Notes under the pieces: model-generated | What the model saw: the letters and a program-made list of their open reading frames with translations, nothing else | Told to the model about the DNA's origin: nothing | Databases searched by the model: none | Source: a virus | DNA length: 20,545 bases | Reading direction: 5' to 3' (one strand) | IMG/VR virus record: IMGVR_UViG_3300042312_000391 | Span: 1 to 20,545 of that record | In this document: piece after piece, positions 8,631 to 20,545 of the stretch | Position numbering within the stretch: the first letter of the stretch is position 1 | Layout: every line of letters starts with the position of its first letter | Made by a program: the position numbers and the translations under genes

Positions 8631-8641
8631 AAATTATAAAT

Positions 8642-9784: not shown

Positions 9785-9786
9785 TT

Positions 9787-10119: not shown

Positions 10120-10131
10120 TTTTACCCCTAA

Positions 10132-10566: not shown

Positions 10567-11045
10567 TAAATCACCTGATCAAAAGTGCTGGTATCACCAT
10601 TATATACATACATTTCAATTGGACTTGATCCTTTTTTAATCCATATAAGACCATTTGCTAAATTTGTTGATGGAGCGGTTGCTGTATAAACAGATGTTGC
10701 AGCATAATATCCAACTCCTGCTGATGAATCTTTATCTAACCAAATATATCCATCTGGTATTGTTTCAGAAAATGCTGTAAATGCTGCTGCAGTTGGCGCT
10801 GTTACACTTGCTCTAGAAATATCTCTTGCTGACTCTTCAAGAGTTGCATTATCATCTATCTGTTCCTGTAAATTATTTATAGTGTATGCAATTGATGGAT
10901 TTAGTAATTGTCCTGAATCTGTTTCGGCGGTATCAAAATCATAAGATCCATAATGATATGCCTTTAAGGCATCCTGAATATTTGCATCATCAACTAATGC
11001 TGGAATTTTAGTTGGTACTAATACCCCTATATTTTGTACAGCCAT
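10566..11045 (-). CDS. Structural protein of unknown role
   Basis: A 159-residue protein beginning MAVQNIGVLVPTKIPALVDDANIQDALKAYHYG, a start shared by small tail-region proteins of several phages. Residues about 95-159 contain WLDKDSSAGVGYYAATSVYT and GLIWIKKGSSPIEMYVYNG, beta-rich motifs. Shine-Dalgarno GAGGTGAT precedes the ATG, with an extended -10 further upstream. It heads a coupled pair with the next gene. Confidence 0.62.
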   Translation of the reverse strand: MAVQNIGVLVPTKIPALVDDANIQDALKAYHYGSYDFDTAETDSGQLLNPSIAYTINNLQEQIDDNATLEESARDISRASVTAPTAAAFTAFSETIPDGYIWLDKDSSAGVGYYAATSVYTATAPSTNLANGLIWIKKGSSPIEMYVYNGDTSTFDQVI

Positions 11046-11063
11046 TTAATCACCTCTATAAAG

Positions 11064-11072
11064 ATTATACCA
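11064..11072 (-). promoter_or_regulatory. Extended -10 box (TGGTATAAT)
   Basis: Read on the minus strand, it lies 18 nt before the ATG at 11045 with Shine-Dalgarno AGAGGTG between. No -35 hexamer is visible. Confidence 0.55.
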
Positions 11073-11080
11073 TTTTTATA

Positions 11081-11656
11081 TTAAACTATAGATATAAATA
11101 AGTGTACATTTTTGTTTCCAGTTAATGCAGACCAACTACCTCCACTATATTGAACTGCGTCAAAATTTATTACTAAGTTTGTTCCAGCACCCGCTAAAGC
11201 AGGAATCTCCATTGATGCTGCAATAGGGCTTGTCCCCTCAATCTTAAACTGAATATTAAAGTTTGAGGCGGTAAGAGGAGATCCAGTAACATTTACTATA
11301 TCTAAAATTGGAATAGTTATGGAACCTGCTCCAGAAACAAACTCAATTATTTCTATGGCAGAATAAATTGCTGGATTGATTTTCAAAACTTGTACCCAGG
11401 CGTTTCCTCCTGGCTGAGAAGTATACTGATACATATATGAATAATTTTCTCCTGGTGCTATATTAATATACATATCATTTAAAATTAAAGTTTGTCCTAA
11501 AATTACCCCATTATTTGTTTGTGAATTTGGCTCTCCAGAACCGACAATAATTTTACTACCACGAGTTCCCTGTGGACCAATATCAACTAATACATCAATG
11601 GTTTCTGGTGGACCTAAGACAACAATATTTTCGGTATTTAATAATACATCAACCAT
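11081..11656 (-). CDS. Structural protein with DIGPQGTRGS motif
   Basis: A 191-residue protein. The N-terminus holds LGPPETIDVLVDIGPQGTRGSKIIVGSGEPN, a short collagen-like element also found in other phage tail proteins. The remainder is predicted beta (IIEFVSGAGSITIPILDIVNVTG). Its ATG overlaps the TAA of the RGDTA-family gene upstream (TAATG), the same coupled cassette as at 7316-7947 and 12764-13254. Confidence 0.66.
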   Translation of the reverse strand: MVDVLLNTENIVVLGPPETIDVLVDIGPQGTRGSKIIVGSGEPNSQTNNGVILGQTLILNDMYINIAPGENYSYMYQYTSQPGGNAWVQVLKINPAIYSAIEIIEFVSGAGSITIPILDIVNVTGSPLTASNFNIQFKIEGTSPIAASMEIPALAGAGTNLVINFDAVQYSGGSWSALTGNKNVHLFISIV

Positions 11657-12006
11657 TATGAATCGTCTGCCCCAGTAATATCATCTGTTACGGTTATGGT
11701 TCCAGTTAGCAATGTAAATACCAATGTTGCACCAGAATCTATTTGAACATCGTATACATATGTTCCAGCAACAAGTCCTTCCCCTGCTCCTGGTAAAATT
11801 GTACAAGTAACTGTGTCTGCACTACCATCAACTATTGCCTGCATTTCATATTGAGTTTGATTTTCTCCTCTTGCATTGGCAATAAAAAATTGTGCGTTAT
11901 AACCAGTTAAATCAAATGCTGAACCGTTTGCTGTTTTTGGTCGTATTACAAATTCAGCAGTGTCGCCACGGTAATAGTTAAAATTATAAGTTCCTGGAAA
12001 TGCCAT
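11656..12006 (-). CDS. RGDTA-family structural protein, copy 2
   Basis: A 116-residue beta protein with NFNYYRGDTAEFVIRP near the start, then FDLTGYNAQFFIANARG and a closing VFTLLTGTITVTDDITG. The arrangement (RGDTA, a GY/W-hydrophobic strand, a closing TxTVTDDIT) matches the copy at 7537-7947, but this one lacks the PxNxxW lead. Such proteins look like a baseplate-type Ig-like domain. AGGAGGAAC precedes the ATG. Confidence 0.68.
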   Translation of the reverse strand: MAFPGTYNFNYYRGDTAEFVIRPKTANGSAFDLTGYNAQFFIANARGENQTQYEMQAIVDGSADTVTCTILPGAGEGLVAGTYVYDVQIDSGATLVFTLLTGTITVTDDITGADDS

Positions 12007-12021
12007 TGTTCCTCCTATAAC

Positions 12022-12030
12022 ATTATACCA
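12022..12030 (-). promoter_or_regulatory. Extended -10 box (TGGTATAAT)
   Basis: Read on the minus strand, it lies 15 nt before the ATG at 12006 with Shine-Dalgarno AGGAGG between. Confidence 0.55.
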
Positions 12031-12750
12031 CTATGATACTGATATATATATACCATTTAAAATAAAAGAACTTTCATTGTCTGTTCTAATTTGAGGAATT
12101 CCCCCATGGTTTTTAATTTTATCACTATCTATAAAAATGGTTTGGCAATATGAAAGGTCATACTGATATTGATATTTTAGTAACCCAGCATATCCTACTG
12201 GAGATAAAGACTCATTTTTTAAAAGAGTTCTTATCCAAACCTCAGTATTGTTGGAATATGTTTCTATAGAAAAGTCATACCTAACTTCTACCTTTGCCCC
12301 AACCTTTAAAGTCTTTAAATTGATATTTCTTGTTGTTTCATTTAACAAAGAAACGGATTTATTTGGAAGATAGGTCTCGTTAGACTTATCTTTATCAATT
12401 GTTAAAAAAAATGAAACCCATCCATCTTCGCCCCTTTCTGGTCCTAATCTATCTGCTGTTGTGCTCTTATTTGCATAATATGCCCATCCAGGATATTGGC
12501 CAGATGGACTATCATAACCTTCCGCACCTTTTCCTGGATCACCTTTTTCACCTTTTGGCCCTTGTGGACCTTGAATTCCTTTTTCACCCTTTTCGCCCTG
12601 TGGTCCTTGAGGCCCTTGCGGTCCTATTGGTCCTACTTCTCCTTTTTCACCCTGAATTCCAGGAACAGCAATATATTCAATAGATTTTGTCTGTTCTATC
12701 GTTTCGTTATATTTTTTCTTTTTACTTGGAAAGTCCATGCTTTTTGTCAT
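12031..12750 (-). CDS. Collagen-like fibre protein
   Basis: A 239-residue protein. The N-terminus is basic (residues 9-14, PSKKKK). Residues 31-75 are 15 consecutive Gly-X-Y triplets with many GEK, GPQ and GPK units, predicted to form a trimeric collagen-like stalk. Residues about 80-239 form a globular head, starting YPGWAYYANKSTTADRLG, with VEVRYDFSIETYSNNTEVWIRT in the middle. Phages use such stalks in tail fibres and decoration proteins. No promoter was identified. The upstream 29-codon gene is 13 nt away, so they are probably co-transcribed. Confidence 0.78.
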   Translation of the reverse strand: MTKSMDFPSKKKKYNETIEQTKSIEYIAVPGIQGEKGEVGPIGPQGPQGPQGEKGEKGIQGPQGPKGEKGDPGKGAEGYDSPSGQYPGWAYYANKSTTADRLGPERGEDGWVSFFLTIDKDKSNETYLPNKSVSLLNETTRNINLKTLKVGAKVEVRYDFSIETYSNNTEVWIRTLLKNESLSPVGYAGLLKYQYQYDLSYCQTIFIDSDKIKNHGGIPQIRTDNESSFILNGIYISVS

Positions 12751-12763
12751 TTTAATCCAAGTG

Positions 12764-12853
12764 TTACTTTATCTTTGTCTTAAAAACCTTTTTGCCAATT
12801 TTAATAATTGGTGGAATATATGGGGTTGGAGTAGAAACCTTTACAACTGGCAT
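12764..12853 (-). CDS. 29-residue basic peptide coupled to RGDTA copy 3
   Basis: A short frame, MPVVKVSTPTPYIPPIIKIGKK and so on, ends in a Lys-rich tail. Its ATG overlaps the TAA of the upstream gene (TAATG at 12855-12851). Position and coupling match the partners of the other two RGDTA genes, though the sequence differs. Function unknown. Confidence 0.5.
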   Translation of the reverse strand: MPVVKVSTPTPYIPPIIKIGKKVFKTKIK

Positions 12854-13254
12854 TATAGGCTTCCCGCAGAAGTGATATTTCCAAGCACACAGATTGTTCC
12901 AACTACTGGTGTCCAGATTATATCTTCTTCTCCACTACCACCAGGAATTTTAACTTGGAGATCAAACGGTAGTTCGGCTACCACTGATTTATATTGATTT
13001 CCCCAATTTATAGTGGTTTCTGATGAAGCAGAAATTATGACATATCCCGATGAATCGGTTACTGTTAATTCATCAAGAAAATCGCCTGCTGGATCATAGG
13101 CGGTAGATAAAAACGTCCACCCATCTGTGTCCCAATAGGTTTTTTCATCATCTTCAAAAAATTCTATTTTTAATGTTGCATTATCTCCACGGACGACTGT
13201 CCATTGAATATTTGCTGGCGTTGCGCCATATTTTTCTATTATTGGAGCACACAT
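12853..13254 (-). CDS. RGDTA-family structural protein, copy 3
   Basis: A 133-residue protein with ATPANIQWTVVRGDNATLKIEFFEDD, closest to copy 1 (PPNVLWTIVRGDTASFRVYVTDD). A WTFLSTAYDPAGDFLDELTVTD strand follows, then VVGTICVLGNIT. The ATG is 8 nt after the extended -10 TGGTATAAT, with no Shine-Dalgarno, so it is probably leaderless. It heads the operon towards the collagen-like fibre. Confidence 0.68.
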   Translation of the reverse strand: MCAPIIEKYGATPANIQWTVVRGDNATLKIEFFEDDEKTYWDTDGWTFLSTAYDPAGDFLDELTVTDSSGYVIISASSETTINWGNQYKSVVAELPFDLQVKIPGGSGEEDIIWTPVVGTICVLGNITSAGSL

Positions 13255-13262
13255 AATAATTG

Positions 13263-13271
13263 ATTATACCA
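13263..13271 (-). promoter_or_regulatory. Extended -10 box (TGGTATAAT), leaderless
   Basis: Read on the minus strand, it ends 8 nt before the ATG at 13254. It sits immediately downstream of the terminator-like hairpin at 13282-13328. Confidence 0.58.
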
Positions 13272-13275
13272 TTAA

Positions 13276-13328
13276 ATAAAACTGGACACCTAGACGCAGT
13301 GGGGTGGGGGATAGTATCTAGGTGCCAG
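13276..13328 (-). terminator. GC-rich 12-bp hairpin followed by TTTTATTT
   Basis: CTGG-A-CACCTAGA (13282-13294) pairs with TCTAGGTG-CCAG (13317-13328): 12 bp with one bulged A and a 22-nt loop. On the minus strand the loop is C-rich and the stem is followed by TTTTATTT, as for an intrinsic terminator upstream of the 13254 gene. The large conserved-looking loop is odd for a terminator, so a structured RNA is an alternative. Confidence 0.62.
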
Positions 13329-13519
13329 CACGAGAATTATAACATTATATTATGATAAATAGTATTATTATAACAAAATGTTATAAATAAAACAATAAAT
13401 AATTGTTATAAAATCGTTATATTGATTTCTGCATAAACTGTAAAAATCCAGGGTATAAAAGTGTATACTTAAAATATATAAAGAAAAGAATAACTAGTAA
13501 GTAAAGTTTTTAAAATATC
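13329..13519. other. AT-rich intergenic stretch with TGTTATAA inverted repeats
   Basis: No gene is visible. TTATAACA (13368-13375) and TGTTATAA (13379-13386) form a tight inverted repeat, AACAAT (13391-13396) and ATTGTT (13402-13407) form another, and further TATAACA/TTGTTATAA words lie at about 13339 and 13404. These could be operators, or hairpins ending the glycosyltransferase mRNA. Confidence 0.45.
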
Positions 13520-14203
13520 TTATATATTATATATAGGAAAATTATTATTTTTACAAAATATTTTATATTTTATTTTATTATCATTAAACACAATATCTAT
13601 ATCATCGTCAAAAATTTTTTTGTAGTCTTCGGAGTGTAAAAAATAATCATTATCAAAACACAACAAATTTTTATTTTTTTCCATTGTTAGAGCAAAGATA
13701 ATGTTTACTGGAAAATCATACACAACCATTTTTTTTTCTTTTATTTGAGAGTTTAACAAAAGGTCTTCATAGTATAAAATTAATGAATCTATAACTGATT
13801 TAATAATTCTACTATTTTTAACTGCACCAAAGTTTGAACAATTAACTCCCTCATGCTGAAACCCTATTGAAGAGCATACAACTTCCTCTTTATTATATTT
13901 TTTATAAATAGATTCTTCAATTGGCTTAACGCATACAGAATCCATGTCTGCATAAAAACCACCATAATTATATATTGCTATTAATCTCCAAATATCTGAT
14001 TGAGTTATTTTATCTGATTTTAAGTAATGACTATATAAAAAACTATCAAACTCTTTTACCATGCTAGATCTTTTATTTGCATCAACATATACATGCTTCC
14101 ATCCATAATTTAAATTTTTCCAATTATTTATTATATTTTTTTGAAATGGAAATAAATCCTCATACTCTGGTTCGTGTGTTTGCCAAATTATTTTTGGAAT
14201 CAC
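13520..14203 (-). CDS. GT32-type glycosyltransferase (DXD motif)
   Basis: A 227-residue protein starting from GTG 14203. The opening IPKIIWQTHEP and the block QSDIWRLIAIYNYGGFYADMDSV are diagnostic of the DXD glycosyltransferase family GT32 (Och1/capsular type); Asp86-Met-Asp88 is the metal and nucleotide-sugar binding motif. The downstream C-terminal part is Lys/Asn/Ile-rich and not recognisable. Such enzymes move a sugar from a nucleotide sugar to an acceptor glycan. The base composition is markedly more AT-rich than the neighbours, with many homopolymer A/T runs, which may signal acquisition. Possible roles are modifying a virion glycoprotein or the host surface. Confidence 0.85.
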   Translation of the reverse strand: MIPKIIWQTHEPEYEDLFPFQKNIINNWKNLNYGWKHVYVDANKRSSMVKEFDSFLYSHYLKSDKITQSDIWRLIAIYNYGGFYADMDSVCVKPIEESIYKKYNKEEVVCSSIGFQHEGVNCSNFGAVKNSRIIKSVIDSLILYYEDLLLNSQIKEKKMVVYDFPVNIIFALTMEKNKNLLCFDNDYFLHSEDYKKIFDDDIDIVFNDNKIKYKIFCKNNNFPIYNI

Positions 14204-14219
14204 CCAAAGTGCCTTAATT

Positions 14220-14432
14220 CTACTTAGAGTGATCTTTTAAATGTTCAACTAAAAGATCAAATAATTTGTCAGTTTTTTCCTCTAGGCGATTAACGGAATC
14301 TTTTAAACTTGATCCAGAATTCGGCTTAAGTTCATTTAAATAATGTTTTACGAGCCAACGAACTCCACCAGCAACAATGGTTGTAATGGTAAGAAGAGTT
14401 AATATAAACGCTGCCCAATCTTGAGGTGACAT
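14220..14432 (-). CDS. Holin-like single-TM membrane protein
   Basis: A 70-residue protein with one hydrophobic segment at residues 7-24 (AAFILTLLTITTIVAGGV), then RWLVKHYLNELKPNSGSSLKD and a charged helix ending VEHLKDHSK, likely coiled coil. This layout (MSPQDWAA...GGVRWLVKHYL...LKPN..SLKD) recurs in tailed phages and is often labelled putative holin. The ATG is 7 nt after the extended -10 TGATATAAT, so a leaderless mRNA is predicted. It is far from the endolysin gene, so the holin role is tentative. Confidence 0.7.
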   Translation of the reverse strand: MSPQDWAAFILTLLTITTIVAGGVRWLVKHYLNELKPNSGSSLKDSVNRLEEKTDKLFDLLVEHLKDHSK

Positions 14433-14439
14433 AAGGTTT

Positions 14440-14448
14440 ATTATATCA
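14440..14448 (-). promoter_or_regulatory. Extended -10 box (TGATATAAT), leaderless
   Basis: Read on the minus strand, it ends 7 nt before the ATG at 14432, with no room for a Shine-Dalgarno. Confidence 0.6.
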
Positions 14449-14462
14449 TTATTTGAGATTAG

Positions 14463-14957
14463 TTATCCAACTTGATTTACCGTCAAAATAATTGAAGGAA
14501 TTGCTGGATGATTTACACCTGCTGCTTCATAATGTAAATCTGCTTGAGTAGAACTTGTCATCCATATCAGTTGATAGTAGTCCCCAGCAGAGGCATCTAC
14601 AAAAAAATTAACTATTGCAACAACATATTGAAAGTCATTTTCTACATTCCATCTAGTATCAGTATTTGCTACGTTATTATTATTTTTTCTTAGCCAAGCG
14701 TTTACTTCTGCCGATGAACTTCCGCCAGTATGTTTATATAACTGTGCTGAAAATTGAATATTATAAATGCCAGAATTTGCTATTGTTATTTTTGAGTTAT
14801 CAACTATAGTCACACCATTTGACAGGTCTGTATTATTAAAGGTCATAGGTGTGGGGGTATTTGCTAAAGCGTCTTGATGCTCTGTACTAAAAAATGATCC
14901 ATAATATAGATTTGGAGCAGATGATGATTCTATAGCGGGATGAGTAAATCTTGCCAC
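14463..14957 (-). CDS. C1q/TNF-like jelly-roll structural protein
   Basis: A 164-residue protein starting from GTG 14957, which abuts the TAA of the upstream gene (TAAGTG). The pattern YGSFFSTEHQDALANTPTPMTFNNTDLSNGVTI, SGIYNIQFSAQLYKHTGG, AWLRKNNNNVANTDTRW, ASAGDYYQLIWMTSS is that of a C1q/TNF-like beta jelly roll found in phage fibre tips and decoration proteins. Such domains trimerise. It is likely a virion surface component. Confidence 0.75.
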   Translation of the reverse strand: MARFTHPAIESSSAPNLYYGSFFSTEHQDALANTPTPMTFNNTDLSNGVTIVDNSKITIANSGIYNIQFSAQLYKHTGGSSSAEVNAWLRKNNNNVANTDTRWNVENDFQYVVAIVNFFVDASAGDYYQLIWMTSSTQADLHYEAAGVNHPAIPSIILTVNQVG

Positions 14958-15236
14958 TTAAGGCTCCAAGCCAATTTGAATCATAGCAATGTTCATAGAG
15001 TTTACGGATGAAATTGCATATAGCGCATCGTTAGAGACGAGTTCAAAAGAGATTGAATGGTTTGGCAAAATTCTAAATCCGTAGTTAGAAGATGTAACTC
15101 CTTCGCCACCGATATAAACATATCCAGTTGCGTTAACATTTTGTAGAGTAATATCCATACCACCGTGTGCGCCTGGTGGAGTCAAGCGAGTAGCGGAAGT
15201 ATCGCTAAGTGTGACTAATGAATGCGCTGTTGCCAT
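14958..15236 (-). CDS. Small conserved phage structural protein (MATAHSLVTL type)
   Basis: A 92-residue beta-rich protein. The pattern HSLVTLSDTSATRLTPPGAHGGMDITLQNVNATGYVYIGGEGVTSSNYGFRILPNHSISFELVSNDALYAISS is a family seen repeatedly next to tail-protein genes in phages. TATACT ends 6 nt before the ATG with no Shine-Dalgarno, so the mRNA is probably leaderless. It is the first gene of the late minus-strand block here. Confidence 0.75.
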   Translation of the reverse strand: MATAHSLVTLSDTSATRLTPPGAHGGMDITLQNVNATGYVYIGGEGVTSSNYGFRILPNHSISFELVSNDALYAISSVNSMNIAMIQIGLEP

Positions 15237-15242
15237 TTATTA

Positions 15243-15248
15243 AGTATA
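15243..15248 (-). promoter_or_regulatory. -10 box (TATACT) of the late block, leaderless
   Basis: Read on the minus strand, TATACT ends 6 nt before the ATG at 15236. A short TTCGGC/GCCGAA inverted repeat (15257-15262, 15277-15282) lies just upstream. Confidence 0.5.
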
Positions 15249-15357
15249 TCTTATTATTCGGCGGGATTTAAGTTAAGCCGAAAATAGAGATATCAAACCA
15301 TCATAAGACACACTATGCCTGCTACGCAGTCAATAATGTCTAACTGGATGCAGTATC

Positions 15358-15363
15358 TATACT
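15358..15363 (+). promoter_or_regulatory. -10 box (TATACT) of the nuclease-like gene, leaderless
   Basis: TATACT ends 6 nt before the ATG at 15370, the mirror image of the divergent late promoter. No Shine-Dalgarno precedes the ATG and an in-frame stop lies at 15334, so the ATG is the only sensible start. Confidence 0.5.
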
Positions 15364-15369
15364 TGCTTA

Positions 15370-15993
15370 ATGTCCCGATATGGGTTATACTTAGATGTGC
15401 TAGATACAATAAAAAATATTCTAATTGAAGGTTTGACAGAGAAGTTAAAAATACATCATAGTGTTTATCGTCTTCCTTGTACCAGCGAATTTTTAGAAGA
15501 ACTTATTGCTAACACCTTTACAGAACATGGCCTGATAAACGACTGGCAGCCTAATAGAAGCCATTCTGTCAGCGTAGATATGTCTTTAGAGTCAGGCGAG
15601 AGTTTCTCCATAAAATCGGGGGTATATGCAAATAACACACTAACCTTCTCAGGCTCAAGATTAGGTAAACATGAAACCCTAGATAAGATGATAGCCAGCG
15701 TAGTGGATAATAGCCCTAAGTATTATGTGTGTCTTGCTAAAGCAGACCAGGATTGGTCTTCTGTCCCCGCCAAAAATGAGAAGAAGGTTTATTATTTATT
15801 TATTTTTGATTCCCAAACCTTGATATATGATAATGGGGTTTGGAATAAGGTTGAAACTAAGTCTGGTGGATATAACTATGTTATGGAGTCTATAGGGATG
15901 TCTGCTAGAATTAATACCAGTATGTCTTCACAGTTGTGGACCAGTGTTAGTGAATCTATTATTGGTTCCCCGACAAAACTTGAAATAGAATAA
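15370..15993 (+). CDS. Possible PD-(D/E)XK-type nuclease (restriction-endonuclease-like)
   Basis: A 207-residue protein of uncertain family. Asp70 in SVSVD and the later SFSIK (Ser80-Ile-Lys82) fit the catalytic Asp ... x-x-Lys of restriction-like nucleases, with Glu43, Glu44 and Glu78 as extra acidic candidates. SGSRLGKHETLDKM and the strand KKVYYLFIFD follow, a layout seen in some type II restriction enzymes. No methyltransferase is nearby in the window, so if it is a nuclease it may degrade host DNA or be protected by phage DNA modification. It lies at the strand switch between late and early genes. The assignment is from motif layout only. Confidence 0.4.
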   Translation: MSRYGLYLDVLDTIKNILIEGLTEKLKIHHSVYRLPCTSEFLEELIANTFTEHGLINDWQPNRSHSVSVDMSLESGESFSIKSGVYANNTLTFSGSRLGKHETLDKMIASVVDNSPKYYVCLAKADQDWSSVPAKNEKKVYYLFIFDSQTLIYDNGVWNKVETKSGGYNYVMESIGMSARINTSMSSQLWTSVSESIIGSPTKLEIE

Positions 15994-15999
15994 TCTTTT

Positions 16000-16008
16000 T
16001 GGTATAAT
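16000..16008 (+). promoter_or_regulatory. Extended -10 box (TGGTATAAT)
   Basis: It lies 31 nt before the ATG at 16040, with Shine-Dalgarno AAAGGGGG between. Confidence 0.55.
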
Positions 16009-16039
16009 TAATACAACAAGCCTAAAGGGGGATAGTTAA

Positions 16040-16228
16040 ATGAATAAAGAAGAAATTGTTATATTGATGGTTGATAGCATAAATGAAAACAATCGTCAAT
16101 TATGCGAACAAACAGGTATGGATAAAGATCAAGCCGAAAAACAGATTGCGGAAAGTCAGCCGTCACTTAGATTTTTAATGGAAAATGTATATAACAAATT
16201 AGTTGAAAAAGAAATAATTAAAGGCTAA
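16040..16228 (+). CDS. 62-residue acidic helical protein, unknown
   Basis: MNKEEIVILMVDSINENNRQLCEQTGMDKDQAEKQ and so on: charged and helix-prone, with one Cys and no membrane segment. It has a strong Shine-Dalgarno and its own extended -10 promoter. It resembles small phage regulatory or inhibitor proteins in size only. Function unknown. Confidence 0.65.
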   Translation: MNKEEIVILMVDSINENNRQLCEQTGMDKDQAEKQIAESQPSLRFLMENVYNKLVEKEIIKG

Positions 16229-16239
16229 GTTAATAAAAA

Positions 16240-16323
16240 TTATTCAAGTTCAACAGGTGGAACAGATGAGTGTAGTTCTTCACAAATACACTTATCGCAG
16301 CATTGCTTTGTTTCTTCGTCCAT
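16240..16323 (-). CDS. 27-residue Cys-rich peptide
   Basis: MDEETKQCCDKCICEELHSS and so on has four Cys in seven residues (CCDKCIC) inside an acidic peptide, suggesting metal binding. The start is 6 nt after an extended -10 (TGATATAAT at 16330-16338), so it is leaderless. It is convergent with the 16040 gene. Reality of the gene rests on promoter placement and Cys pattern. Confidence 0.5.
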   Translation of the reverse strand: MDEETKQCCDKCICEELHSSVPPVELE

Positions 16324-16329
16324 AAATAT

Positions 16330-16338
16330 ATTATATCA
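16330..16338 (-). promoter_or_regulatory. Extended -10 box (TGATATAAT), leaderless
   Basis: Read on the minus strand, it ends 6 nt before the ATG at 16323. Confidence 0.55.
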
Positions 16339-16354
16339 GAAGTGTTAAATTTTT

Positions 16355-16450
16355 TTAGTTATACCATTTTGAAGATTTTTTAGATTGTAGTTTTGCAATC
16401 AATAAAAGTCCCAATATGGCTAAAACAGAAAAAAATAGCCCCTTTATCAT
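16355..16450 (-). CDS. 31-residue single-TM peptide
   Basis: MIKGLFFSVLAILGLLLIAK then LQSKKSSKWYN: one hydrophobic segment (residues 4-19) with a basic C-terminal tail, so a small inner-membrane peptide. Its ATG overlaps the TGA of the upstream 54-codon gene (ATGA, 16450-16447), and Shine-Dalgarno AGAGGAAAAG lies inside that gene. Last gene of a three-gene coupled operon. Confidence 0.6.
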   Translation of the reverse strand: MIKGLFFSVLAILGLLLIAKLQSKKSSKWYN

Positions 16451-16611
16451 TTCTTTTCCTCTTTTATGTATGGCTTTAGTATATCCCAGTGGCCTTTAGG
16501 ATTTCCCTGATATACCTGCCCAGTTTCCCTATCTAGCAATAGCCATTTTTCAGGTCTTTTGGTTTTTACTGTCAATAATGTTGGTTCATCAAAAACCTTA
16601 TATTGAGTCAT
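16447..16611 (-). CDS. 54-residue protein, unknown, coupled operon
   Basis: MTQYKVFDEPTLLTVKTKRP then EKWLLLDRETGQVYQGNPKG and HWDILKPYIKEEKK. WLLLDRETGQVYQG reads like a small beta hairpin, and the protein is probably cytosolic. It overlaps its upstream and downstream genes by 4 nt each (ATGA). Confidence 0.6.
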   Translation of the reverse strand: MTQYKVFDEPTLLTVKTKRPEKWLLLDRETGQVYQGNPKGHWDILKPYIKEEKK

Positions 16612-16727
16612 GAAGATAGTGCCAAACTAAAATGTTTTTTGCAAACATCAACTATTTGGTAATCATATGGTTGTAGGTAAATGCTTTCTTCATTACAAAA
16701 GTAACATTCTTTAGAGTCAGATTTCAT
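16608..16727 (-). CDS. 39-residue zinc-finger-like protein
   Basis: Cys8-x2-Cys11 and Cys29-x2-His32 form a CCCH-type metal site in a 39-residue protein. First gene of a three-gene operon joined by ATGA overlaps. TAAAAT (minus strand, extended as TGG) ends 6 nt before the ATG, so a leaderless start is predicted. Confidence 0.58.
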   Translation of the reverse strand: MKSDSKECYFCNEESIYLQPYDYQIVDVCKKHFSLALSS

Positions 16728-16733
16728 ACTTTA

Positions 16734-16755
16734 ATTTTACCACATCAGGTATAAT
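16734..16755. promoter_or_regulatory. Divergent leaderless promoter pair
   Basis: Minus-strand TGGTAAAAT (16734-16742) ends 6 nt before the ATG at 16727. Plus-strand TATAAT (16750-16755) ends 6 nt before the ATG at 16762. The two -10 boxes are 10 nt apart, so simultaneous binding of two polymerases looks impossible. Confidence 0.55.
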
Positions 16756-16761
16756 GGCTAT

Positions 16762-16842
16762 ATGGGTTTTTTATTGTTTTCTATAACAGTTATATGCGTG
16801 ATTGGCGTAATTAAAATAGTTTTGGATGCCCTTGAGCGATAA
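16762..16842 (+). CDS. 26-residue single-TM peptide
   Basis: MGFLLFSITVICVIGVIKIV then LDALER: almost wholly hydrophobic over residues 2-20. Leaderless start after TATAAT. It overlaps the start of the zinc-ribbon gene by 17 nt, indicating coupled expression. Confidence 0.52.
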   Translation: MGFLLFSITVICVIGVIKIVLDALER

Positions 16843-17029
16843 CTCAAAGCCTTGGGATTTAATTAATGGATCTCCTAGGTCACCAGAAGAGATTGTTCAA
16901 TCCCGCTTAGAAATTTGTAGAGACTGTGATTGGTTTAGAAAAAATACTGAAACATGTAGGAAATGTAATTGTTTTATGAAATTAAAAACATTGTTAGAAA
17001 AATCTAAATGCCCAATAGGTAAGTGGTAA
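16826..17029 (+). CDS. Small phage zinc-ribbon protein
   Basis: A 67-residue protein with Cys31-x2-Cys34, Cys44-x2-Cys47, Cys49 and Cys62. The framework SRLEICRDCDWF...TCRKCNCFMKLKT...KCPIGKW is a recognisable family of very small phage proteins with the ending KCPxGKW. Family members have no established function; metal binding is clear. It lies in a coupled pair with the TM peptide. Confidence 0.78.
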   Translation: MPLSDNSKPWDLINGSPRSPEEIVQSRLEICRDCDWFRKNTETCRKCNCFMKLKTLLEKSKCPIGKW

Positions 17030-17191
17030 TTATTTTTTATTGTGATCTTTTTCAGACTTGCAAGAACAGCCATTACAGCAAAACTCTTGAAAAACCTTTA
17101 ATGCCAGACCATCGTTTGTAGCAATGTAGATAGAAGACTCATATCCTTTTGGTCTTTGTCTTGCCCAGGACTCTGAATAGTTAAATTCCAT
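17030..17191 (-). CDS. 53-residue Cys-cluster protein
   Basis: MEFNYSESWARQRPKGYESS then IYIATNDGLALKVFQEF and a Cys cluster CCNGCSC followed by KSEKDHNKK. Its ATG lies inside the end of the upstream gene (11-nt overlap) with Shine-Dalgarno GGAGG. Metal binding is plausible. Convergent with the zinc-ribbon gene; their stops almost touch. Confidence 0.58.
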   Translation of the reverse strand: MEFNYSESWARQRPKGYESSIYIATNDGLALKVFQEFCCNGCSCKSEKDHNKK

Positions 17192-17333
17192 GTTCCTCCA
17201 TATACTTTAATCTTTCCATAAGTTTATGATGCTCTGGGTCTTCAAGCATTTCTTTAATAGCATCTGTAACTTTTTTGCTTGGCATACTATTGTCATCTGC
17301 CATAGAAAATTCAAGATTATCTAGAAAAGCCAT
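17181..17333 (-). CDS. 50-residue helical acidic protein
   Basis: MAFLDNLEFSMADDNSMPSK then KVTDAIKEMLEDPEHHKLME and RLKYMEEHGI: helical and charged, with no Cys. Start overlaps the end of the upstream TM peptide by 13 nt. Function unknown. Confidence 0.58.
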   Translation of the reverse strand: MAFLDNLEFSMADDNSMPSKKVTDAIKEMLEDPEHHKLMERLKYMEEHGI

Positions 17334-17386
17334 ATTAATGCTGCCACACCGACTATGATGATAGAGATTAGTAGTTGTTGTTTCAT
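17321..17386 (-). CDS. 21-residue single-TM peptide
   Basis: MKQQLLISIIIVGVAALIWL then F: two polar residues and then a full membrane-spanning stretch. TATAAT (17393-17398) ends 6 nt before the ATG, so leaderless. First of a three-gene overlapping operon. Confidence 0.48.
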   Translation of the reverse strand: MKQQLLISIIIVGVAALIWLF

Positions 17387-17392
17387 AAAATC

Positions 17393-17398
17393 ATTATA
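17393..17398 (-). promoter_or_regulatory. -10 box (TATAAT), leaderless
   Basis: Read on the minus strand, it ends 6 nt before the ATG at 17386. Confidence 0.5.
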
Positions 17399-17401
17399 CT
17401 C

Positions 17402-17560
17402 CTAAATACTCCACCAGGTGTTAGTGTTATAAAAAAATCCTACTTTTTCTTTATATTCGGCATATCTTTTATTTACCGTATCCCAATTAGGATCGTTGGT
17501 GTTCAAACCACAATATCCACATAGGCCAGGACCTGTGTATGCATAGACGTGTTGGCACAT
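17402..17560 (-). CDS. 52-residue zinc-ribbon-like protein
   Basis: The frame could start upstream at 17605, but the internal ATG 17560 is preferred: TATAAT (17567-17572) ends 6 nt before it and would otherwise be coding. Cys2-x-His4 and Cys14-x2-Cys17 (QHVYAYTGPGLCGYCGLNTN) form a small metal site; the remainder is helical (KRYAEYKEKVGFFYN). Resembles small phage CxH...PGxCxxCG proteins. Confidence 0.6.
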   Translation of the reverse strand: MCQHVYAYTGPGLCGYCGLNTNDPNWDTVNKRYAEYKEKVGFFYNTNTWWSI

Positions 17561-17566
17561 ATATTT

Positions 17567-17572
17567 ATTATA
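17567..17572 (-). promoter_or_regulatory. -10 box (TATAAT), leaderless
   Basis: Read on the minus strand, it ends 6 nt before the ATG at 17560 and argues against the longer start at 17605. Confidence 0.5.
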
Positions 17573-17665
17573 CCCCATCCCCTGAAAATCTGAAAAAATT
17601 TTCATTTTACAAAAATCTGAATATTTTTCTTAGATGTATGATATGTGATTTTAAAAATAAAAAAT

Positions 17666-17687
17666 AAAAAAAATAGTGAGCACACTA
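17666..17687 (-). terminator. Intrinsic terminator of the early minus operon
   Basis: TAGTG (17674-17678) pairs with CACTA (17683-17687) around a 4-nt loop, followed on the minus strand by eight T (17673-17666). The stem includes the TAG stop of the last gene. Confidence 0.72.
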
Positions 17688-17786
17688 CTCTAACTCTGTG
17701 TAGTGCGCCCTGTCATAGTCTGCAAGTGTCCCACCATTTTCTAGGTGGGTCTTGCGTCTTAGTTGCTCAGCAGAATACTCAGCCAC
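17685..17786 (-). CDS. 33-residue charged peptide, last gene of early minus operon
   Basis: GTG start directly abuts the upstream TAA; Shine-Dalgarno AGGAGAG lies 9 nt before it, inside the upstream gene. VAEYSAEQLRRKTHLENGG then TLADYDRAHYTELE is hydrophilic and helix-prone. A strong hairpin (17722-17755) lies in the coding sequence, so a structured RNA is also possible. Confidence 0.5.
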   Translation of the reverse strand: MAEYSAEQLRRKTHLENGGTLADYDRAHYTELE

Positions 17787-17924
17787 TTATCTATCTCTCC
17801 TAATTAATTTAACTGAATAAATAAATGCGATAGTGCCAACCAATAACCATGTAGGTATATTGATCTGCAATTCTATGCTGTCAGCATATAGGCCAAATGA
17901 GTTTAGATCTAGGTATAGTTCCAC
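17787..17924 (-). CDS. 45-residue single-TM protein
   Basis: GTG start 17924, overlapping the upstream TAG by one base (TAGTG) after AGGTGG. ELYLDLNSFGLYADSIELQI leads to a TM stretch (PTWLLVGTIAFIYSV) and a basic end KLIRRDR, so N-out/C-in by the positive-inside rule. Function unknown. Confidence 0.58.
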   Translation of the reverse strand: MELYLDLNSFGLYADSIELQINIPTWLLVGTIAFIYSVKLIRRDR

Positions 17925-18082
17925 TATGCCACCTGCTCTATCTTGTGCACCAAGTATTCAAATTTTAATGGTGGATTTACTGAATTGAATTCGTCAATAA
18001 TCTTGACGATATCTTTAATGCTATTAGCGGTTAGCGTACCCTTTTGCAGGCTACCTTGCCAAATTGAATAAGTGATTTTCAT
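17924..18082 (-). CDS. 52-residue protein, unknown
   Basis: MKITYSIWQGSLQKGTLTAN then SIKDIVKIIDEFNSVNPPLK and FEYLVHKIEQVA: alpha/beta, cytosolic, possibly a host-interaction protein by size. ATG overlaps the upstream TAA (TAATG). Confidence 0.6.
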   Translation of the reverse strand: MKITYSIWQGSLQKGTLTANSIKDIVKIIDEFNSVNPPLKFEYLVHKIEQVA

Positions 18083-18192
18083 TAGTTGCTACCACCAAAC
18101 ACTGCACCAGCGATAGCAATTAGAGTTATCGTAGCAAGCACGATAGGTAAAACAATATGAGGGTAATCCTCTACCCAATCAAAAAATAGCAT
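18082..18192 (-). CDS. 36-residue single-TM peptide
   Basis: MLFFDWVEDYPHIVLPIVLA then TITLIAIAGAVFGGSN: acidic N-terminus and one membrane segment at residues 13-31. Shine-Dalgarno GAGGAGA lies in the end of the upstream gene, 1 nt from which it begins. Part of the five-gene early operon. Confidence 0.58.
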   Translation of the reverse strand: MLFFDWVEDYPHIVLPIVLATITLIAIAGAVFGGSN

Positions 18193-18193
18193 C

Positions 18194-18346
18194 TTAGTTA
18201 TTCTCCTCTACATTGTATTGAGCAGATAGATAAGCGTTAGCCTGACTTAGTGCGTCAAGCAAGGACTTATCCTCTCTATCGTAGCGAGCCTGTTGGGCTG
18301 CTCTGATATCTGCAATAAGGTTATTGTTAGGGTTATTCTTTATCAT
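18194..18346 (-). CDS. 50-residue helical protein, first gene of early minus operon
   Basis: MIKNNPNNNLIADIRAAQQA then RYDREDKSLLDALSQANAYL and SAQYNVEENN: a hydrophilic, helical protein. AACGAAAGGA precedes the ATG, and the RecA-NDp-like promoter at 18389-18411 lies 43 nt upstream. Confidence 0.6.
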   Translation of the reverse strand: MIKNNPNNNLIADIRAAQQARYDREDKSLLDALSQANAYLSAQYNVEENN

Positions 18347-18388
18347 TTTAGTTTATCCTTTCGTTAGATAACTTTCTTTATACCTGCA

Positions 18389-18411
18389 ATTCTAGCAGGG
18401 GGGTCTGACAA
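18389..18411 (-). promoter_or_regulatory. RecA-NDp/PafBC-like promoter A
   Basis: Read on the minus strand: TTGTCAGAC, 8 nt, TAGAAT. This fits the mycobacterial RecA-independent DNA-damage promoter TTGTCRGTG-N8-TANNNT in spacing and core. A CCTGC/GCAGG inverted repeat frames the -10. It drives the five-gene minus operon. Confidence 0.68.
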
Positions 18412-18439
18412 TTTAGGGGCTTTCCCTAGCGTGTCGTGA

Positions 18440-18455
18440 TGTGATCTACACCACT
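18440..18455. promoter_or_regulatory. CRP/GlxR-like palindrome 1
   Basis: TGTGA-N6-CCACT, two mismatches from TGTGA-N6-TCACA. Its centre is 53.5 bp upstream of the -10 of promoter A. GCGTGTCG lies 3 nt to its left. Confidence 0.5.
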
Positions 18456-18464
18456 TGTGGAGGT

Positions 18465-18513
18465 CTTATTCGCTAGGCTCATCCTCTTGTAGAGGCTTAC
18501 TTGCTAGGCTCAT
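18465..18513. repeat. Pair of 18-nt direct repeats
   Basis: CTTAYTYGCTAGGCTCAT occurs at 18465-18482 and 18496-18513, 31 nt apart, with a CCTCT/AGAGG hairpin between. On the minus strand each begins ATGAGCCTAGC. Possible protein-binding iterons. Confidence 0.55.
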
Positions 18514-18541
18514 ACCTAATTCTTTATTTTGTTGTATGGTA

Positions 18542-18570
18542 ATACTATCAGAGATAACCCTAAAAGTCAA
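18542..18570 (-). promoter_or_regulatory. Sigma70-type promoter on the minus strand
   Basis: TTGACT (18570-18565), 17 nt, TAGTAT (18547-18542) with an extended TGA. It points to the minus operon about 200 nt away and lies 52.5 bp from the centre of CRP-like site 2. Confidence 0.65.
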
Positions 18571-18591
18571 ATCTAAACACGGCGTGTCGCA

Positions 18592-18607
18592 TGTGATCTA
18601 TACCACA
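18592..18607. promoter_or_regulatory. CRP/GlxR-like palindrome 2
   Basis: TGTGATCTATACCACA, one mismatch from TGTGA-N6-TCACA. CACGGCGTGTCG lies 2 nt to the left. It is placed to serve the minus-strand TTGACT promoter. Confidence 0.58.
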
Positions 18608-18660
18608 TAGACAAATGGTACAAATCGGACATTGGCCTCGGCGCTCACGGCGTGTCGTGG

Positions 18661-18676
18661 TGTGCTTAAGATCACA
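18661..18676. promoter_or_regulatory. CRP/GlxR-like palindrome 3
   Basis: TGTGCTTAAGATCACA; the reverse strand reads TGTGA-N6-GCACA. Its centre is 64.5 bp upstream of the -10 of promoter B. CACGGCGTGTCG lies 3 nt to the left. Confidence 0.56.
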
Positions 18677-18715
18677 ATCCCTTATGTCTGAAATGTCCGT
18701 TTTGTATACCCTAAA

Positions 18716-18738
18716 ATGTCAGTGGTCTATGTTAGGAT
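18716..18738 (+). promoter_or_regulatory. RecA-NDp/PafBC-like promoter B
   Basis: ATGTCAGTG, 8 nt, TAGGAT. Closest of the four to the published TTGTCRGTG-N8-TANNNT. It precedes the gene at 18773, which has Shine-Dalgarno GAAAGGTGG. Confidence 0.7.
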
Positions 18739-18772
18739 TATCCTATAAAGTTAAAAAAGAAAGGTGGTCAAA

Positions 18773-18949
18773 ATGACTACATTAGAAATAACAAAGTGTG
18801 TTAGGCATACACCAAATATAAATGCCATGTCTATCGTTCATGATGAGCGATTTACTTTCTGCGAAAATTGTGAGCAGAATATAACTTCTCACTATATTGA
18901 GGACAATGACATCATGTCATACTGGTCTTCATGGAAGGTAGGTAAATAA
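18773..18949 (+). CDS. 58-residue zinc-ribbon-like protein, early operon 1
   Basis: ATG 18773 is chosen over the in-frame GTG at 18764, because GAAAGGTGG lies just upstream of it and the same leader (AAAGGTGGTCA) precedes the ATG at 19757. Cys9-x2-His12 and Cys30-x2-Cys33 suggest a metal site. The next gene's ATG abuts its stop. Function unknown. Confidence 0.62.
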   Translation: MTTLEITKCVRHTPNINAMSIVHDERFTFCENCEQNITSHYIEDNDIMSYWSSWKVGK

Positions 18950-19045
18950 ATGATAACCCTTAATTGTCGTCTATGTGATGAAAAAGTTTCTAGTAATTTA
19001 TTTGATGAGCAAGATATAATTACTTGCTCAAATTGTTGGGAGTAA
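18950..19045 (+). CDS. 31-residue four-Cys zinc-finger-like peptide
   Basis: Cys6-x2-Cys9 and Cys26-x2-Cys29 in a 31-residue peptide (MITLNCRLCDEKV...DIITCSNCWE). ATG abuts the upstream stop directly. A single treble-clef or rubredoxin-like knuckle is possible. Confidence 0.58.
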   Translation: MITLNCRLCDEKVSSNLFDEQDIITCSNCWE

Positions 19046-19046
19046 A

Positions 19047-19172
19047 ATGATTAACGAAATAAAAAATAAAATAATTCGTATTCAAGAATTGCGTCGTAGT
19101 AATGCTGCGACACCAATTCCAAATAAAAAAAAATATTCTAGAAAAATAAAACATAAAAATAAATTGCAATAA
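19047..19172 (+). CDS. 41-residue very basic peptide
   Basis: MINEIKNKIIRIQELRRSNA then ATPIPNKKKYSRKIKHKNKL Q: no acidic residues after Glu14, and over a third of the residues are Lys or Arg. Likely binds nucleic acid, or acts on ribosomes or membranes, by charge alone. One base separates it from the upstream stop. Confidence 0.55.
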   Translation: MINEIKNKIIRIQELRRSNAATPIPNKKKYSRKIKHKNKLQ

Positions 19173-19186
19173 AAAATCCCGAGGCG

Positions 19187-19207
19187 TTTTCCACAGGCTG
19201 TGGATAA
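19187..19207. promoter_or_regulatory. DnaA-box pair (inverted)
   Basis: TTTTCCACA (19187-19195) and TGTGGATAA (19199-19207, minus strand TTATCCACA, a perfect DnaA box). They are 12 nt apart start to start. A replication or regulatory site; the same pair recurs at 20307-20327. Confidence 0.52.
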
Positions 19208-19216
19208 CTTACGATG

Positions 19217-19232
19217 TGTGGTTAAGATCACA
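19217..19232. promoter_or_regulatory. CRP/GlxR-like palindrome 4
   Basis: TGTGGTTAAGATCACA; the reverse strand reads TGTGA-N6-CCACA, within a longer TGTGTG...CACACA palindrome. No -10 box stands at either standard spacing, so its promoter is unassigned. Confidence 0.52.
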
Positions 19233-19338
19233 CAAAATCCTGTCCATATTTTGAGATTTACGGCGTGGCGATTTGCTTTCTTGGATTTTTTTTGGTAAAC
19301 TTACCTAGTAAGAAAATAAAGAAAGGAAGTGGCTAACA
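19233..19338 (+). other. Control region before the 19339 gene
   Basis: It holds TTTACGGCGTGGCG at 19257-19270, a T run at 19285-19293, overlapping GGTAA/TTACC and TTAC/GTAA inverted repeats around 19294-19311, and a Shine-Dalgarno (AAAGGAAG). No RecA-NDp match was found. The -10 box is not clear. Confidence 0.4.
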
Positions 19339-19539
19339 ATGGCTAACTTATTTACAATCCCTCAATTACTGGTAGGACAAAACTACCGCAGTAATTCTAT
19401 CTCTGGAGAAATTATCTCAGCAGAGAAATCTCCTCAACCAATTTGGTATGGAGAAAATACTGAGCCTTATTTAGTAGGCGTGGTTTCTAATAGTGGTAAA
19501 TATACCTACCGCACAGTAGCGGTGAAGGTTGGTGAGTAA
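19339..19539 (+). CDS. 66-residue beta protein, early operon 2
   Basis: MANLFTIPQLLVGQNYRSNS then ISGEIISAEKSPQPIWYGEN and TEPYLVGVVSNSGKYTYRTV AVKVGE. Strand-rich, no Cys and no TM segment. Shine-Dalgarno AAAGGAAG. Its stop overlaps the next ATG (TAATG). Function unknown. Confidence 0.66.
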   Translation: MANLFTIPQLLVGQNYRSNSISGEIISAEKSPQPIWYGENTEPYLVGVVSNSGKYTYRTVAVKVGE

Positions 19540-19661
19540 TGGGATACATAGAAATATTTCGCCTTGATGAGCAGGGTGCTGGATGGGTAGATCTTTCTGA
19601 GGCTACTCCTCAAGAATTGCTTGACCTAGAAATAGGTTTATTTCAGGAAGGGGCTTTGTGA
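19539..19661 (+). CDS. 40-residue acidic protein
   Basis: MGYIEIFRLDEQGAGWVDLS then EATPQELLDLEIGLFQEGAL: acidic, with amphipathic helix likely at the C-terminus. TAATG overlap with the upstream gene. Its stop codon lies inside the CRP-like site at 19657-19672. Confidence 0.58.
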   Translation: MGYIEIFRLDEQGAGWVDLSEATPQELLDLEIGLFQEGAL

Positions 19662-19672
19662 GATAAATCACA
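19657..19672. promoter_or_regulatory. CRP/GlxR-like palindrome 5 (perfect consensus)
   Basis: TGTGAGATAAATCACA matches both TGTGA-N6-TCACA and the GlxR form TGTGANNTANNTCACA with no mismatch. Its centre is 52.5 bp upstream of the -10 of promoter C. Confidence 0.68.
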
Positions 19673-19699
19673 AGGCAACACACCCCTAGCAGGTAGAAA

Positions 19700-19722
19700 A
19701 TGTCAGGGGTATTTGATAGGAT
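19700..19722 (+). promoter_or_regulatory. RecA-NDp/PafBC-like promoter C
   Basis: ATGTCAGGG, 8 nt, TAGGAT. It lies 34 nt before the ATG at 19757. An in-frame ATG inside this element (19700) is not the start. Confidence 0.68.
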
Positions 19723-19756
19723 AGTCTTATCAAACAATAAAGAAAGGTGGTCAGAA

Positions 19757-19942
19757 ATGACTTATACTGTAAAACTAGAAACCTTTAATGGTGCTGTAAA
19801 AAAAATCAACCTACCTTCTAAGGGTGCGGTTGCTCAATTCATAAACACTTATCCAAACCAATTACCTGTTGGCGTATCTGTTAAATTAGATTGCGACGCT
19901 TTAGGTATTCGTGGAACACTTCGTGGAAAGGCGTTAGCATAA
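19757..19942 (+). CDS. 61-residue protein, early operon 3
   Basis: ATG 19757 is chosen because GAAAGGTGGTCA precedes it and the longer frame would begin inside promoter C. MTYTVKLETFNGAVKKINLP then SKGAVAQFINTYPNQLPVGV and SVKLDCDALGIRGTLRGKAL A: a small alpha/beta protein with a basic face. Overlaps the next ATG (TAATG). Confidence 0.62.
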   Translation: MTYTVKLETFNGAVKKINLPSKGAVAQFINTYPNQLPVGVSVKLDCDALGIRGTLRGKALA

Positions 19943-20076
19943 TGATAAATTCTGTAATGTCTTTTGATTGTAATGAGTGTAATGGTAAAGGTTTAATCTT
20001 TTGGGGAGATAACCTTGACTACAATGTAGAAAAATGCGAGTGTGAAAATTTTGTGTTAGGAGATTTACTACAATGA
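19942..20076 (+). CDS. 44-residue DnaJ-zinc-finger-like protein
   Basis: Cys10-x2-Cys13-x-Gly15-x-Gly17 and Cys32-x-Cys34 resemble the CxxCxGxG repeat of the DnaJ central domain. The start at 19942 (TAATG overlap) is preferred over the in-frame 19891, which overlaps the upstream gene. Coupled to the next gene by an overlapping ATGA. Confidence 0.6.
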   Translation: MINSVMSFDCNECNGKGLIFWGDNLDYNVEKCECENFVLGDLLQ

Positions 20077-20264
20077 TGACACGCAAAGACTATATCAAAA
20101 CCGCAAACATCTTAAAAGGATTTGTAGATGAAATTCCGCAAATTACTTATGAGGATTTAGTAAATGAATTTGCTGAGTGGTTTAAATCAGATAATGAAAA
20201 TTTTGATTTTGCAAGATTTGAAAAGGCTTGCGGAATTGATGAGATTGGTTTAATTCCAGTATAA
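20073..20264 (+). CDS. 63-residue helical phage protein (MTRKDY type)
   Basis: MMTRKDYIKTANILKGFVDE then IPQITYEDLVNEFAEWFKSD and NENFDFARFEKACGIDEIGL: the frame TRKDY...NFDxxRFEKACG recurs in small phage proteins. The ATG at 20073 overlaps the upstream TGA; ATG 20076 is equally possible. Function unknown. Confidence 0.68.
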   Translation: MMTRKDYIKTANILKGFVDEIPQITYEDLVNEFAEWFKSDNENFDFARFEKACGIDEIGLIPV

Positions 20265-20270
20265 CAAAAA

Positions 20271-20297
20271 CGCCTCTAGAACAAATGTTCGGAGGCG
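20271..20297 (+). terminator. Strong hairpin after early operon 3
   Basis: CGCCTC (20271-20276) pairs with GAGGCG (20292-20297), and inside it GAACA (20279-20283) pairs with TGTTC (20286-20290). Only a TTTT follows, at 20307, after CCCGAGGGG. Likely a terminator, not a classic T-run one. Confidence 0.58.
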
Positions 20298-20306
20298 CCC
20301 GAGGGG

Positions 20307-20327
20307 TTTTCCACAGGTTTATCCACA
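20307..20327 (+). promoter_or_regulatory. DnaA-box pair (direct)
   Basis: TTTTCCACA (20307-20315) and TTATCCACA (20319-20327, perfect DnaA box), again 12 nt apart. The flank CCCGAGGSGTTTTCCACAGG is shared with the element at 19178-19197. Confidence 0.52.
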
Positions 20328-20336
20328 GGCTTTACG

Positions 20337-20352
20337 TGTGATTAAAAACACA
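20337..20352. promoter_or_regulatory. CRP/GlxR-like palindrome 6
   Basis: TGTGA-N6-ACACA, in a GTGTG...CACAC context, one mismatch from consensus. Its centre is 64.5 bp upstream of the -10 of promoter D. Confidence 0.56.
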
Positions 20353-20391
20353 CCCTAGATTCCCCAGATCCTTACGGCGTGGCGTTTGATA

Positions 20392-20414
20392 ATGTCAGAC
20401 TAAACTGATAGGAT
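20392..20414 (+). promoter_or_regulatory. RecA-NDp/PafBC-like promoter D
   Basis: ATGTCAGAC, 8 nt, TAGGAT. It lies 23 nt before the ATG at 20438. CTTACGGCGTGGCG (20371-20384) lies between it and site 6. Confidence 0.66.
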
Positions 20415-20437
20415 AAAGATATAACGAAAGGAAAACT

Positions 20438-20545
20438 ATGGGAAAGTTCAAAGATACTTTAATGGGAATACTTGCTCATGATGAGTGCTATGGCGCAGGT
20501 TGGCAATTCACAGGAAATGCTATAGACTATGATGTATGGGCGTGT
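20438..20545 (+). CDS. Partial early gene, cut by window edge
   Basis: 36 codons (MGKFKDTLMGILAHDECYGA then GWQFTGNAIDYDVWAC) open at ATG 20438 and run out of the window. AACGAAAGGAAAAC precedes it and promoter D lies just upstream. Family not recognised. Confidence 0.55.
   Translation, partial: MGKFKDTLMGILAHDECYGAGWQFTGNAIDYDVWAC

Follow-up and report, generated by a model that had tools for sequence, protein, structure and literature searches.

Restriction enzymes with short recognition sites are encoded by chloroviruses such as PBCV-1 and are believed to degrade host DNA early (PMC7019647). The genes for these enzymes adjoin those of the cognate methyltransferases, and the enzymes themselves are packaged. 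PacI is a solitary restriction enzyme without a methyltransferase, which is protected by the absence of recognition sites from the genome (PMC3488263). Endonucleases also act between phages, as gp210 of PhiPA3 harms a co-infecting phage in interference competition (PMC11620839). This protein is an HNH homing endonuclease, and its target is a specific sequence in one gene and not a 4-bp word. The site of PacI is 8 bp long and its catalytic centre is of the HNH type; TaqI, which recognises TCGA, is partnered with a methyltransferase. An orphan enzyme protected by site loss, virus-borne restriction and endonuclease-mediated competition between phages are known separately; searches of open-licence literature brought up no phage family in which they come together, and no restriction enzyme of a phage whose recognition site had been purged from its own genome for protection, a search result which is no proof of absence.

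We analysed a stretch of 20.5 kb from a viral record (positions 1..20545, hereafter the window), in which it is rather probable that a gene at the late/early strand switch encodes an orphan TCGA-specific endonuclease, used most likely for the breakdown of host DNA, with self-protection by purging of the site and not by methylation. The predicted protein resembles type II enzymes of the EcoRV type, its closest solved folds, in carrying an Asp and an xK on a pair of strands and, as we infer, in having a short specific site. It differs from them in its SxK in place of DxK, in showing no detectable sequence similarity, and in being phage-borne, with no partner methyltransferase found and protection apparently by site loss. 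Unlike the chloroviruses, the phage here is tailed, and none of three methyltransferase families occurs in 15 long contigs. Self-protection through missing recognition sites would be shared with PacI, but PacI is a single, bacterial case, and the word missing here has 4 bp and has disappeared from many phage genomes. TaqI has the same site as that proposed for the phage nuclease, and it was not among the matches listed in our sequence or fold searches.

In the window, late genes form one long block on the minus strand and small genes lie on the plus strand, of which the nuclease open reading frame (15370-15993, +; 207 aa, carrying D70 and S80-I81-K82) is the first after the switch. Aligning 81 loci (80 relatives and the window itself; 48 in the window's clade and 33 in a second clade) showed that the start at 15370 given in the preliminary description lies nine codons too early. 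Within the nine codons upstream of the position of GTG 15397, an in-frame stop is present in 38/48 loci of the window's clade (window included) and in 19/33 of the second clade, whose members have their start codon, usually ATG, where the alignment puts this GTG. Because of these stops and the second-clade start, translation most likely begins at GTG 15397, giving a predicted protein of 198 aa (15397..15993, +), and the first nine listed codons (15370..15396, +) are probably promoter or leader DNA. Residue numbers are counted from this GTG; adding nine gives the preliminary numbering (D61, S71 and K73 correspond to D70, S80 and K82).

Upstream of the gene, the window reads TTGCTT-N17-TATACT-N5-GTG, comprising a -35-like hexamer that is conserved in the window's clade (15363..15368, +) and a -10 hexamer 5 nt before the GTG (15386..15391, +). 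A -10-like hexamer stands 3-9 nt upstream of an in-frame start in 70/81 loci, against 424/11119 (3.8%) of start-like codons in the carrier contig G001. Among the 11 exceptions, three (L061, L068 and L080) have no promoter-like sequence and eight have a weaker hexamer or one placed a base further away. The nuclease transcript is accordingly predicted to be leaderless, as the preliminary description had proposed, and to arise from a conserved promoter of its own. Its remark that this -10 is mirrored at the divergent late gene also holds: TATACT (15243..15248, -) stands 6 nt before the ATG of the first late gene across the switch (14958..15236, -; 92 aa), in the arrangement TATACT-N6-ATG.

Searching IMG/VR with three queries returned 91, 130 and 127 loci encoding relatives of the nuclease, of which 80 were taken each time. 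Judging by these relatives, the reading frame is a real gene, with conserved counterparts at 130 or more viral loci. The preliminary description had singled out D70 and K82, with several nearby Glu, as a candidate catalytic core, and the conservation of these catalytic-type residues bears it out: E31 (the earlier E40; codon 15487..15489, +), E34, E35, D61 (15577..15579, +), S71 and K73 are invariant in 28/28 aligned relatives, down to 55% identity, as is the stretch SGSRLGK (residues 85-91). In the model, E31 falls in the helix before the core, and S71-I72-K73 (15607..15615, +) places the SxK motif on the strand formed by residues 69-78.

No named nuclease family matched the protein in Pfam, NCBIfam, PHROGs or PDB sequence searches: with the window protein as query, Pfam, PHROGs and PDB gave no match, NCBIfam gave nothing meaningful, and the best hit of a PDB profile search was a nucleoporin (E 0.37). 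PADLOC REase_II matched 3/28 members weakly (best E 0.007), PHROG 36635 matched one member (E 1e-4), and two BFVD models resemble the nuclease (A0A482IIW3, E 6e-12; I3UL10, E 5e-8). At the sensitivity used, tblastn with P0001, L079 and L131 found no relative in INPHARED phages. This PHROG and a tblastn match in Vibrio phage pVa-21 (E 2) were rejected, as the pVa-21 protein lies beside annotated virion structural genes and profile comparison gave a probability of 9%; that PHROG 36635 and the pVa-21 protein belong to one family is a guess, and the remaining tblastn matches had E values of 7-9. An Rfam search of the window returned nothing. The suggestion that the gene might be a host-derived defence gene found no support in cellular DNA: no relative appeared in plasmids (tblastn) or in 84,980 species genomes scanned with conserved peptides, both at the sensitivity used, nor in 296 genomes of the order and 394 of the class of a freshwater actinobacterium. 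Weak matches in four of the 296 order genomes (E 0.013-0.044) were rejected as transporter-component-like proteins by sequence.

Structure prediction likewise points to a restriction-like nuclease, as first proposed. AlphaFold models built from two alignments reached pLDDT 82.2 and 87.6 and pTM 0.82 and 0.85, and their order helix-helix-strands-helix-strands fits a PD-(D/E)XK core. Searched against PDB folds, the better model matched restriction endonucleases before anything else: of the 50 rows listed, they fill the top 28, headed by EcoRV (Z 8.1, rmsd 3.8 over 147 residues) and followed by NhoI, the N-terminal domain of Eco15I and DpnI, and the next unrelated row is a fructose bisphosphatase (Z 5.0). 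With the first model, the top nine PDB rows are all restriction endonucleases, led by 3ndh (Z 7.8), which we take to be ThaI. We set aside rows of low Z or low TM (fructose bisphosphatase, mucin, nitroalkane oxidase). With neither model did Foldseek find a PDB entry at E 0.001 or better, and a Z near 8 is modest; the fold result alone is moderate evidence for a PD-(D/E)XK fold, and together with the invariant D...SxK and the Glu residues it is good evidence for a predicted nuclease.

The canonical acidic residue of (D/E)xK is absent, with Ser in its place, and this substitution could indicate a catalytically dead nuclease fold that serves as a DNA-binding or virion protein. Such a reading is highly improbable in our judgement: neither D61 and K73 nor the three Glu upstream of them vary, enzymes known to be active, Cfr10I and NgoMIV among them, have SxK together with a relocated Glu, and a dead protein would leave the loss of TCGA described below unexplained.

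The earlier observation that no methyltransferase lies near the gene holds and extends further, as searches for PF01555, PF00145 and PF02086 found none in 15/15 carrier contigs of 63-109 kb, with positive controls, although contigs of this kind may be incomplete. Near the same switch, a nuclease-free sister phage carries a small gene that resembles a methyltransferase and has an HPPY motif (G018 5747-6460, -; L315 2463-3176, -).

An indirect sign of a specificity comes from the word content of the genomes, compared with maximal-order Markov expectations. Nine long carrier contigs together should contain 618 copies of the word TCGA and contain 0 (zero in each, with 59-78 expected); three long contigs of nuclease-free sisters have 127 against 275 expected (41, 25 and 61 sites). 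The window itself contains no TCGA (15 expected), and also no CCGG (13 expected), AGCT (55) or CGCG (9). Among 136 classes of four-letter words, TCGA alone is absent in carriers yet present in non-carriers (0/633 observed over expected in 895 kb, against 375/738 in 665 kb); words one base away from it show no depletion, and none of the 5- and 6-letter words scanned is absent from carriers yet present in non-carriers. Where sites could be aligned, 0/1775 TCGA sites of non-carriers are kept in carriers (a pairwise, non-independent count), while in the same alignments one-base neighbours are retained at 11-49% and TCGA between non-carriers at 18%. The word TGCGCA is nearly absent in both groups (1 against 50 expected in carriers, 0 against 37 in non-carriers), and GGATCC is depleted more strongly in carriers than in non-carriers.

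The association extends to a wider sample, for which a holin-like membrane protein of the window (14220..14432, -; 70 aa, named from sequence features) served as an anchor to find carriers and non-carriers. From 382 loci we formed 164 contig clusters on shared 200-letter words, which may merge near-identical phages; 74 are carriers, 42 non-carriers and 48 unclassed. TCGA is lacking in 73/74 carrier clusters (5 sites observed, 653 expected) and in 2/42 non-carrier clusters (458 observed, 628 expected; 40/42 keep the word), giving a Fisher p of 1.6e-27 that is uncorrected for kinship. All five carrier sites lie in L264, whose gene is intact but has Asn in place of S55, and which keeps TCGA at 5 sites against 4.5 expected in 4.6 kb; it may be a recent arrival, have a changed specificity or be a counter-example. 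The two non-carriers free of TCGA, L295 and L314, lack it in the partial genome stretch available. A further 80 sister loci anchored on RecA hold 607 TCGA sites against 1353 expected, and 75/80 are nonzero. Nuclease presence was tested in 30 of these RecA records (the longer ones), 12/42 non-carriers, L264 and two positive controls, and no nuclease was found in the covered portion of the 30. One sister group among the RecA loci (L450-L470) has strongly but incompletely reduced TCGA (e.g. L469, 1 against 12.8 expected), and six fragmentary records of it that were tested contain no nuclease.

Shared ancestry could produce such an association, a question on which gene content and trees bear. Across the 12 long contigs there are 313 protein families (at least 80 aa), 130 of them variable, and of the 313 the nuclease alone occurs in every one of the nine contigs free of TCGA and in none of the remaining three; one family, a tail-like protein by sequence, is limited to the three non-carriers. 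A six-protein tree places carriers in separate positions and rejects the hypothesis of one carrier clade (AU p 0.00077). In it the gene and the TCGA purge change together twice, as they do in a 24-row tree, and two independent contrasts are too few for significance alone. A short-marker tree of 80 contigs, from which 36/116 decided clusters were dropped because the marker was absent, requires seven changes, three of them on strong branches, with TCGA moving in the same direction in nearly all pairings.

The main rival reading is that TCGA was purged by a TCGA restriction-modification system of the hosts, that the nuclease has another specificity or role, and that the match reflects a coincidence of lineage or shared hosts. 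Other missing words lend it weight. CCGG is absent from all 12 long contigs (G001-G009, G016-G018) and all 80 RecA loci, and AGCT is absent from the window, G001, G004-G007, G017 and G018 (five of the nine long carriers and two of the three non-carriers) and from 75/80 RecA loci (L450-L529), but common in G002, G003, G008, G009 and G016. No gene in the 12 long contigs is tied to this loss (at least 6/7 AGCT-free contigs and 0/5 others). As AGCT and CCGG are fully purged in many of these phages without a linked gene found, host restriction may be able to purge genomes completely, perhaps of TCGA too, and non-carriers are themselves depleted in TCGA (observed/expected about 0.5). Avoidance of the sites of host systems is documented (PMC6286503), and the well-supported independent contrasts number just two to three. 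Against this stand the contrast between carrier and non-carrier clusters, with carriers not forming one clade, and the fact that the single family of 313 whose distribution coincides with that of the TCGA-free contigs is also the one predicted to fold like a restriction endonuclease. Nor is TCGA avoided in candidate host DNA, though a methylated host would have no need to avoid it. On balance we regard host restriction as an unlikely source of the TCGA pattern.

The gene occupies the late/early switch in 9/9 long carriers, while the sister phages examined have the same slot without it, holding a small Cys-rich gene (in the window at 16826..17029, +; its relatives lie directly at the switch in nuclease-free sisters) or other genes; the nuclease thus has the behaviour of an accessory gene that brings a promoter of its own. 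Among 97 assessable neighbour loci (63 of 160 were dropped for too little flank), 50 have the nuclease and 47 do not; all 47 were retrieved through the holin, at an identity of at most 70% in that protein. Patchy presence among relatives and the predicted PD-(D/E)XK fold would also suit a free-standing homing endonuclease or a recombination or resolution nuclease of the phage. We think either very unlikely: the gene occupies one and the same locus in each of the nine long carriers, an enzyme with a long homing site would not be expected to make a 4-bp word vanish over about 870 kb, and the phage already encodes RuvC-like and Cas4/RecB-like proteins, as named from sequence features. Alleles without the gene occur at the same locus, but the signal is a 4-bp word missing from whole genomes. 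Cargo beside the switch varies, with genes resembling those for flavin halogenases, sulfotransferases and glycosyltransferases by sequence features (L046 3028-4629; G001 93490-94137; window 13520-14203).

The best 80 cellular matches of an IscA-like protein of the phage are all actinobacterial, freshwater lineages among them, which suggests, but does not prove, that the hosts are actinobacteria including freshwater lineages; the virus is probably a phage of lake bacteria. In 14 actinobacterial loci, mostly freshwater, TCGA occurs near its expected frequency, at about 3-10 per kb, so that by extrapolation an enzyme cutting at TCGA would make thousands of breaks in a host chromosome. In the mechanism that we infer, an orphan type II restriction-fold endonuclease would be expressed from its own leaderless promoter at the strand switch and would cut TCGA specifically. 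The phage genome, purged of the word, would be safe and would need no methyltransferase; the host chromosome would be broken at TCGA during infection, most likely the main role, and co-infecting phages that keep TCGA would be cut equally.

Host breakdown and exclusion of rivals overlap in mechanism and differ in role. Exclusion of TCGA-keeping co-infecting phages would have suitable victims, since gene-free sisters keep 25-61 TCGA per long contig, and would agree with an accessory slot in which the gene is gained or lost among relatives and with a phage endonuclease known to act in interference competition (PMC11620839). However, candidate host chromosomes offer far more TCGA sites, and chlorovirus restriction enzymes were not responsible for exclusion (PMC7019647). 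As those enzymes are believed to degrade host DNA and did not account for exclusion, we favour host DNA breakdown; exclusion would be a strong second role, though as the main benefit it is the less probable choice.

More tentatively, and with considerable doubt, methyltransferase-free 4-bp endonucleases may be weapons against host or rival DNA, and the palindromes missing from each phage (in the window TCGA, AGCT, CCGG and CGCG) may record the cutters that it carries or meets; purging of the enzyme's own site would then join methylation and exotic bases as a third way for restriction enzymes to spare their own genome, one that comes and goes quickly with the gene. If so, a lone toxic restriction enzyme would become tolerable once every copy of a 4-bp word had been deleted from about 100 kb, its specificity could be predicted from genome words alone, and gene-free sister phages would provide matched controls. 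The pattern also suggests that some of the 'restriction avoidance' seen in phages may stem from a nuclease of their own and not from the host.

Elsewhere in the window, two fibre-like reading frames (811-1620 and 8681-9784, -) contain fibronectin-III-like stretches that end in Phe-Pro repeats, with a related reading frame in L052, and a lysozyme- or transglycosylase-like reading frame (8079-8630, +) lies on the plus strand within the minus-strand late block.
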